A stretch of 64,000 bases of DNA from Bolinopsis microptera (taxonomy: Eukaryota > Ctenophora > Tentaculata > Lobata > Bolinopsidae): contig NC_087073.1 in the NCBI RefSeq assembly GCF_026151205.1, positions 22,504,487 through 22,568,486 on the forward strand, read 5' to 3'. How positions within the stretch are numbered: the stretch's first letter is position 1; each line of letters begins with the position of its first letter. Position numbers and translations under genes: made by a program. Shown piece after piece: positions 7,401 through 10,400 of the stretch. Under the pieces are notes generated by a model. It was not told the DNA's origin. It did not search any database and saw only the letters and a list, made by a program, of their open reading frames with translations.

Positions 7401-10400
7401 GTATGTTAATTAGTTATCGGACTGTGCGAAATGTTTATTAGTAATACTGCTAGTACTACTAATGAATGAAGAATGAGAGTTTCTGTTCAGCAAATGAATC
7501 AGTAATTGTTATGTAGAAGTGCAGTGTGTAATTGAGTGTAATGACTCTGTGTAATCCATCTAGCTGTATGTGGGAAGGGTGGGGGGGGGGGGGGGAGGGG
7601 GGAGGTATCAATATATACAGGTATTATAATATAGACACGGAACGCGAACGTATAATTTGACCGGCAATAATTTCGGCTAGGAACAATATTTTTCCATGGG
7701 ATCAAAAGCATCCAATAGATATATCACTCCCCTCAACTAAAAATTTGATTTTGAGAAAAATTTCCATGAAGACCCCCCTGCCCCCTTAACTATAACAGGA
7801 TGGCCCAGAAGTAACTGCCCACACGCAACCCTTTAATAACTTTAAAGTTAACTTAAGTTTAAGTTAAAGACCCTTTTAAGATATTGCAGATACGTGATCT
7901 CGGTACTTCATCAGTGATTTCGTCACCCAATCAGTAATCTCATCGGGAGATATTCGCTAGCCAGCAACAATGAGACTCATTAGGCGGTAACGAGCATGTT
8001 GGTGGATGATGATCTGATCACTTTGAGTGAATACTGATAGTAGAGAGGTTGGGCCAAGATAGCCCACGAGAGGATAGCATTGAGATGCCTACCTCTGGGG
8101 TGTGGCAACCCTGGGGAAGGTTGCCGGTGAAATCAGAGTGAATGGTTAAGGATGGTGTAAAAAGTGACATGAGTCAAGATGTTGACTCATGTCACTGATA
8201 GACCTGATAATGACGTTCTTTAAAACTGAAGAAATTCGCATTATAGCCCTTCGGTTGCTGTCCTATAAGCAGTCTCCAACCAATCAGGGCATTGATTGAG
8301 TGAAGATATTACTGATTAAGAGCTGGATCACGTATCTGTAAGATCTTAAAAGGGTCATAACTCGGTTAAATTGTGGACAACCAACTTGAAATTTTGGGAG
8401 AGCAAAGCCCGTGATCTTCCTCCCTGTGATCACGGGCTTTCTAGTATTATATTATGTGTACATAATATTTTCCCCCACAAATTGACATCGCATCCCTAAC
8501 AAAGTAACAATCGCTACTTTTATCTGGTATTCAAATATTCTTGATGAAGTGTGAATAATATGAAGATTGCAGATAATAGTATGTCGATATTATGTTAATA
8601 TCCCCTTTTCTCAGGTTTTCGTTTATAGACGGTCTGGCTGATGTTAATATCCCCTTTTCTCAGGTTTTCGTTTATAGACCTGGCTGGTAGTGATATTATG
8701 TTAATACCCCCTTTTCTCAGGTTTTCGTTTATAGACCTGGCTGGTAGTGATATTATGTTAATATCCCCTTTTTTTCAGGTTTTCGTTTAAAGACTTAGCT
8801 GATGTTAATACCCCCTTTTCTCAGGTTTTCGTTTATAGACCTGGCTGGTAGTGTTAATATCCCCTTTTCTCAGGTTTTCGTTTATAGACCTGGCTGGTAG
8901 TGATATCCCCTTTTCTCAGGTTTTCGTTTATAGACCTGGCTGGTAGTGATATTATGTTAATATCCCCTTTTTTCAGGTTTTCGTTTAAAGACCTGGCTGA
9001 TGTTAATATCCCCTTTTCTCAGGTTTTCGTTTATAGACCTGGCTGGTAGTGATATTATGTTAATATCCCCTTTTTTTCAGGTTTTCGTTTAAAGACTTAG
9101 CTGATGTTAATACCCCCTTTTCTCAGGTTTTCGTTTATAGACCTGGCTGGTAGTGTTAATATCCCCTTTTCTCAGGTTTTCGTTTATAGACCTGGCTGGT
9201 AGTGATATCCCCTTTTCTCAGGTTTTCGTTTATAGACCTGGCTGGTAGTGATATTATGTTAATATCCCCTTTTCTCAGGTTTTCGTTTAAAGACCTGGCT
9301 GATGTTAATATCCCCTTTTCTCAGGTTTTCGTTTATAGACCTGGCTGATGTTAATATCCCCTTTTGTCAGGTTTTCGTTTATAGACCTGGCTGATGTTAA
9401 TACCCCCTTTTCTCAGGTTTTCGTTTATAGACCTGGCTGGTAGTGATATTATGTTAATATCCCCTTTTCTCAGGTTTTCGTTTATAGACCTGGCTGGTAG
9501 TGTTAATATCCCCTTTTCTCAGGTTTTCGTTTATAGACCTGGCTGATGTTAATATCCCCTTTTCTCAGGTTTTCGTTTATAGACCTGGCTGGTAGTGTTA
9601 ATATCCCCTTTTCTCAGGTTTTCGTTTATAGACCTGGCTGGTAGTGTTAATATCCCCTTTTCTCAGGTTTTCGTTTATAGACCTGGCTGGTAGTGATATC
9701 CCCTTTTCTCAGGTTTTCGTTTATAGACCTGGCTGGTAGTGTTAATATCCCCTTTTCTCAGGTTTTCGTTTATAGACCTGGCTGGTAGTGTTAATATCCC
9801 CTTTTCTCAGGTTTTCGTTTATAGACCTGGCTGGTAGTGATATCCCCTTTTCTCAGGTTTTCGTTTATAGACCTGGCTGGTAGTGTTAATATCCCCTTTT
9901 CTCAGGTTTTCGTTTATAGACCTGGCTGGTAGTGTTAATATCCCCTTTTCTCAGGTTTTCGTTTATAGACCTGGCTGGTAGTGTTAATATCCCCTTTTCT
10001 CAGGTTTTCGTTTATAGACCTGGCTGGTAGTGAACGAGCAGCTGATGTTAGCGACACAAGTAAACAAACTAGGATGGAAGGAGCTGAAATAAACACTAGT
10101 CTTTTAGCTGTAAGTTACACCAAATACCTCTGAAATGTTTAACATGTCTGCTAACAGTGACGCAATACATATTATTCAAATTATCCACAGGATTTGTTTC
10201 CCTAACATGAATATTAACAGGCATACGTTCATCGAGGTGTGTGATTATGTTAAAATAATCGTAATTTTTCTTCTAAAATGAAATGAAATGTTTAACCTTT
10301 GTTTGTGTTCCATTATTACATGATATGAAATGTGAAATATGAAATGTGTAACTTGTAATGTGTATATTTCCTAACAGAGTATAATAAATGAAGATAATTT

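Follow-up and report, generated by a model that had tools for sequence, protein, structure and literature searches.

The closest described counterparts of the arrays reported here are the "mirages" of amphioxus, minisatellites that span an exon-intron border in Adh3 and in the globin genes BflGb6 and BflGb9 (PMC3087553). Mirages occur at 5' or 3' borders, many of their units carry AG/GT signals, and the units measure 10-72 bp in Adh3 and 150-160 bp in the globins, with the units of a cluster evolving in concert; the repeats are reported to vary in length and to be somatically unstable, and regular splicing was found undisturbed by RT-PCR (PMC3087553). A search of the open-licence PMC literature returned, among the matches listed, arrays of this kind for amphioxus alone, and the accessible portions of PMC8724738 and PMC4039745 describe none. 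The arrays described below are likewise tandem repeats astride an exon-intron border, at both 5' and 3' borders, with the outermost copy being genic and splice signals present in many units. They are unlike mirages in that BflGb6 has 3 or 6 units depending on the haplotype, whereas unit counts here range from 2 to 112, and in that three arrays lie in one gene, several gene families are involved, and the organism is a ctenophore rather than a chordate. Border-spanning minisatellites as such are known; the larger copy numbers, the many genes, and the other lineage are new.

NAGNAG, or tandem, acceptors are competing 3' splice sites 3 nt apart, whereas the competing sites described here are 46-58 nt apart and come with copied exon sequence. 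Duplicated sites in the constructs of Reed and Maniatis (1986) reportedly compete in vitro, with proximity and the amount of exon sequence deciding the outcome; those constructs were artificial and held few copies, whereas the copies here are natural and many. The VNTR of TERT intron 6, a 38-bp repeat that acts on splicing, is an intronic minisatellite too, but its distance from the junctions exceeds 1 kb (PMC3948165). Introns can be gained by tandem genomic duplication when splice signals lie inside the duplication, the coding sequence being unchanged (PMC3443670, PMC4974935); the arrays here instead enlarge introns and have their partner sites outside the array. Among ctenophores, tandem repeats are reported at 13% in H. 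californensis (PMC8527503).

Amplified splice junctions in a kinesin gene

The window, i.e., the whole stretch of 64,000 nucleotides analyzed here, belongs to contig C2 of the 264.65 Mb Bolinopsis microptera genome (contigs are labelled C1, C2, and so on), and positions refer to the window unless a contig or another locus is named. A kinesin gene on the + strand runs from an upstream locus (L001) to at least position 19543. Joined together, the outermost exons encode a complete motor that covers positions 1-326 of the 327 in the Pfam kinesin model (E 7e-101) and in which the motifs GQTGSGKT (P-loop), NAESSRSH (switch I), and DLAGSE (switch II) are all intact in frame. The best PDB matches of the motor are the kinesin-13 proteins KIF2C and Klp10A, and the upstream exons, translated by eye, contain a SAM domain (Pfam SAM_1, E 7e-10). 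With a complete motor, kinesin-13 structures closest, and SAM upstream, the host gene is a kinesin-13 with a SAM domain; from the domain order, it is presumably KIF24-like. A second kinesin on contig C9 (L002), 47-72% identical to the host motor in three pieces and perhaps a second kinesin-13, has no array of period 12 or longer.

The following exons of the gene lie on the + strand and keep the joined frame: the P-loop exon at 1360..1439, kinesin exons at 3530..3665 (also by the kinesin HMM) and 4174..4261, the switch I exon at 7235..7356, the switch II exon at 10004..10109 (also by the HMM), further kinesin exons at 10410..10481 and 13005..13114 (both also by the HMM), and an exon with the neck and downstream sequence (VKELGRDG...) at 19180..19543. 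This last exon holds, behind the neck, an in-frame 39-bp coding repeat of 2.9 copies detected by TRF at 19226-19339. The inner exons measure 72-136 nt and the introns 300-6065 nt.

The original prediction that about 29 tandem 3' splice sites precede the switch II exon was borne out. Array a (8592..10032, + strand, by repeat anatomy and TRF) contains exactly 29 occurrences of CAG|GTTTTCG between 8615 and 10004, spaced 46, 49, 57, or 58 nt apart, and its TRF score of 1912 at period 49 is far beyond chance. Its 46-58 bp unit comprises about 17-29 intron-side nt, CAG included, followed by up to 29 nt of the switch II exon, so that each unit repeats, in order, an intron end, a pyrimidine tract, CAG, and the start of the next exon. 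The unit had been described as a sequence joined to the first 29 exon bases, and while this anatomy stands, the sequence CCCCTTTTCTCAG is exact in 25 of the 29 copies and the exon part comes to 28-30 nt. Genome-wide, CCCCTTTTCTCAG has 35 matches, 25 of them in array a; three others at C4:13144780-13144918, 61-65 nt apart, are perhaps one more acceptor array.

The functional acceptor is the last copy (10004), which alone, as had been foreseen, runs on into the catalytic exon and gives the functional 106-nt switch II exon ending at the donor 10109|GTAAGT. From -22 to +29, 13 of the 29 acceptors are identical, the functional one among them. Behind all 28 decoys, a frame check on the joined exons reaches a premature stop 23-43 codons past the upstream exon, in line with the TAG/TAA expected in the spacer. 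The 28 unit lengths fall into 57-58 bp (six), 49 bp (11), and 46 bp (11). In the 57-bp unit, the spacer GTAGTGATATTATGTTAATAT joins the end of the exon part to single-copy flank, with 1-2 bases common at the seam; by eye, 10 of the 11 49-bp units (the exception being copy 1) are 8-nt deletions, and the 11 46-bp units 11-nt deletions, of this long unit. In addition, the copies at 8721-8977 are repeated as a block 302 bp onward. Such unit variants and block duplication are ordinary minisatellite behaviour.

A second amplified junction had also been claimed for this gene, and it is present as array b, a row of 25 tandem 5' splice sites with a 35-bp unit (window part 1..739, + strand, by repeat anatomy, TRF, and frame check), with 21 copies inside the window and four donors upstream. 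Each unit consists of 29-30 exon nt plus GTAAG/GTAAGT, and the first copy is the true exon end, ...AKPLVDWVFQG|GTAAGT (L001:6864-6893). Identity from -9 to +6 extends to 24 of the 25 donors, including the functional one. A stop lies behind every decoy (24/24), and a bypassed donor reads CAA GGG TAA in frame. Arrays a and b agree in an exon part of 28-30 nt, the exact figure varying with the side to which the bases at the seam are counted.

Array c, a third amplified junction absent from the original prediction, consists of six tandem 3' splice sites (7005..7241, + strand, by TRF and frame check) with a 41-bp unit made of 34 intron-side nt and TTGGTAA of the switch I exon, which starts inside the last copy; all five decoys lead to a stop. 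A degenerate GTTAGT/GTTAATTA repeat that starts at the switch I exon donor (7357..7416, + strand, by eye and from TRF rows 7358-7416) is a possible fourth junction array. Arrays a, b, and c border exons with or beside the P-loop, switch I, and switch II.

The window holds further repeats. Two adjoining 35-bp arrays of about 19 copies each occupy 2110-3451, with their common unit inverted at a border near 2790, and an intronic 42-bp repeat of 14.6 copies lies at 16006-16619, its unit containing TTTCAG and TAG|GTATAA and being open as a 14-residue repeat. A LINE-like element at 20859-25484 encodes an AlkB-type 2OG-Fe(II) oxygenase in ORF1 (E 4e-18), where a GDSL hydrolase match stays below threshold, and a reverse transcriptase in ORF2, where the same holds for an endonuclease match; the element may sit inside a 44-bp minisatellite present on either side (19711-20332 and 29970-31614). 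Open frames at 58061-58873 and 60799-61701 carry 60-bp and 15-bp coding repeats (EGETIKHDTTRYVERKPVSE; TTDHV), and 62784-63944 has many T, A, and G homopolymer runs (TRF periods 13-27), either natural or an assembly oddity.

Junction arrays in other genes

Elsewhere in this genome, junction arrays occur in genes for kinesin, myosin, lipase maturation factor, dynein, TSP1, and M1 peptidase. The kinesin survey took 107 of 120 motor-domain matches, in 24 loci; the remainder were seven matches of the host gene, two one-piece matches, and four at C7:9552647-9564301. Tandem repeats make up 12079 of the 97713 bp of kinesin loci. The survey yielded a 53-bp donor array of eight copies (L024), a 33-bp donor array of 52 copies together with a 26-bp acceptor array of 112 copies (L015), a 21-bp acceptor array of 24 copies with a 38-bp donor array of two (L023), a 49-bp acceptor array of seven copies (L011), a 13-bp donor array of 22 copies (L021), and a 53-bp donor duplication (two copies; L006). 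The myosin survey, covering 73 of 73 matches with flanks of 260 nt, gave one strong case, a 40-bp repeat of at least seven copies that extends past the analysed stretch (L051), and four weak junction cases.

A sample of 16 motif-array loci, taken as the first listed rows rather than at random, yielded a recognised exon at five (L028, L029, L031, L033, and L039) and no exon at 11 (L026, L027, L030, L032, L034-L038, L040, and L041). Among the latter, L026 and L030 belong to a single dispersed family beside N runs, and L032 is zinc-finger-like in antisense by eye. The exons matched Pfam LMF1_C, TSP_1, and Peptidase_M1 above the cut-off and Sushi below it; a dynein-like exon was assigned no family by Pfam or NCBIfam, and a PDB sequence search with it retrieved dynein heavy chains (E 4.5e-7). 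The LMF1 exon (L031, C1:1290000-1293000) has a 14-bp repeat of 40 copies beside its acceptor and, at its other end, a 65-bp donor array of 18 copies that runs past the analysed stretch.

In nine further arrays, stops lie behind 80 of 84 donor decoys and all 139 acceptor decoys; no stop occurs before the decoy donor in 2 of 6 decoys of L051, 1 of 7 of L024, and 1 of 20 of L021. The exon part of the unit measures about 0, 3, 7, 11-14, 12, 19, 20, 20-21, 24, 26-30, 27, 28-30, 29-30, 31, 32, about 47, and about 61 nt in 17 junction-spanning arrays, an 18th row (L031A) being excluded as it merely adjoins its acceptor. Although 10 of these 17 lengths lie in the range of 19-32 nt, the spread lends no support to the proposal that an equal exon part of 29 bases in two arrays reflects a shared mechanism. 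We also considered the exon copy as a master copy and rejected it: in none of eight arrays (of which L015A and L039 compare poorly, their exon copy having only part of the unit) did identity to the functional copy change significantly as the distance to the exon grew, and nothing marks the exon copy as the master.

Placement at junctions and alternative explanations

One has to consider a mutational process aimed at splice sites, in which tandem duplications would start there from breaks or template switching that accompany transcription or splicing (e.g., at U1-bound donors or R-loops); we regard this as possible but doubtful. In its favor, 13 of 72 arrays in the two Pfam families surveyed for placement (kinesin and myosin) span a junction against 6.91 expected under random placement (P 0.015), a count that leaves out the host kinesin gene and a degenerate donor repeat in L009 and includes four weak members (L057, L063, L065, and L078, with 2-4 copies and 1-14 exon nt). 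For arrays of score 200 or higher, the figures are 8 of 19 against 2.93 (P 0.002). In the null, a simple rule placed the exon borders close to the HMM ends, and periods of 207 (L024) and 109 (L023) were used instead of 53 and 21, which raised the expectation. Junction spanning is about 2-3 times commoner than random placement predicts, a modest excess drawn from two families, and amplified junctions are confirmed both at other borders of the host gene and in other genes. The excess is, however, uneven: kinesins give 8 of 49 against 4.86 at score 60 or higher (P 0.10) and 7 of 15 against 2.53 at 200 or higher (P 0.003), whereas myosins give 5 of 23 against 2.04 (P 0.047) and 1 of 4 against 0.40 (P 0.35), respectively.

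Word counts also point toward an aimed process. Three tandem GGTAAGT with gaps of 20-50 nt match 6114 times against 36820 single copies (16.6 per 100), compared with 66 against 28784 for the reversed word TGAATGG (0.2 per 100), 2256 against 80484 for GGVAAGT (2.8 per 100), and 2503 against 80507 for its reverse TGAAVGG (3.1 per 100); per single copy, GGTAAGT thus stands about 5-70 times above the counted 7-base controls, a rough excess given that matches rather than arrays were counted and that long or dispersed arrays (L026/L030) weigh heavily. Similarly, AAGGTAAGT has 493 tandem matches against 4019 single copies and its reverse TGAATGGAA has one against 3289, and TTTTCAG has 1077 tandem matches against 195 for its reverse (single copies uncounted). 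Nevertheless, control words vary widely: GGATAGT has 1292 tandem matches and its reverse TGATAGG 681 (single copies again uncounted), so that the raw excess over GGATAGT is just 4.7-fold. Of 10 donor arrays, 5 have their seam on the intron side between +4 and +9, as an aimed process might produce, but selection by itself pushes seams past about +4, because a cut donor would break the gene. The original prediction had suggested slippage or repair that captures junctions; the unit variants and the 302-bp block of array a are consistent with slippage or unequal exchange, whereas a junction-aimed process stays unproven.

Could the arrays instead regulate splicing, with decoys used purposely to divert some of the RNA into decay or to delay the intron? 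Every decoy of arrays a, b, and c leads to a stop, and the arrays border exons of one gene that contain or neighbour these three motor motifs (P-loop and both switches), yet stops are expected anyway in non-coding repeats read in shifting frames, and unrelated genes with unrelated units carry arrays as well, so we consider regulation very improbable; we saw no sign of an array having a function of its own. Intron gain by a tandem duplication carrying splice signals might hold for other arrays, and the array a unit does contain CAG|GT, as in documented introns of this type (PMC3443670). For arrays a-c we rejected it, as each has its partner site beyond its own limits (donor 7356 for a, acceptor 1360 for b, and donor 4261 for c) and donor and acceptor do not both come from duplicated copies, which leaves this reading with very little probability overall. 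An introner or transposon-borne intron was also rejected, the 10 genome matches of the array a 13-mer outside the array being scattered (only that 13-mer was searched). Finally, the copy number of long arrays is hard to assemble, and reads may be collapsed or multiplied; an assembly artefact is nevertheless highly unlikely, given that copies differ in substitutions and unit length and that like arrays occur on several contigs.

A model for array origin and its implications

We consider it probable that the arrays are exon-boundary minisatellites resembling mirages, which form part of the intron, have their outermost copy spliced and their decoy transcripts decayed, and are tolerated. Array a would have started as a short tandem duplication of about 57 bp astride the exon-intron border, in a genome rich in tandem repeats, with a seam at 1-2 common bases, and would have grown to 29 copies by slippage or unequal exchange, accompanied by unit deletion variants and block duplication. 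The array would then be part of the intron, with the spliceosome picking the outermost copy. Because decoys match the true site (13/29 identical in array a and 24/25 in array b), local sequence cannot decide. The outermost copy alone is joined to the whole short exon and its partner site and would be picked, most likely, by exon definition, which is expected in a setting of short inner exons and long introns. With the next-to-last acceptor of array a, the exon would measure 155 instead of 106 nt, a length that is still acceptable to exon definition, and therefore some mis-splicing is likely. Decoy-spliced transcripts would carry an early stop and undergo nonsense-mediated decay, and for this reason the array would be tolerated.

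Should a genome-wide mutational process of this lineage prefer splice junctions, which we hold to be a doubtful prospect, hundreds of genes would carry rows of 5-100 near-identical competing sites whose outermost member is found by a positional rule, one for which the local sequence gives no basis. The arrays amount to a natural competition experiment, in which dozens of sites share the same local sequence and a single one is of use; with them, positional rules of splice-site choice (exon definition and proximity) could be told apart from sequence rules, and the way in which the ends of introns expand could be followed. In genomes of this kind, gene prediction may set exon borders wrongly. The recurrence of these arrays in a ctenophore suggests that minisatellites at exon boundaries are not confined to amphioxus.
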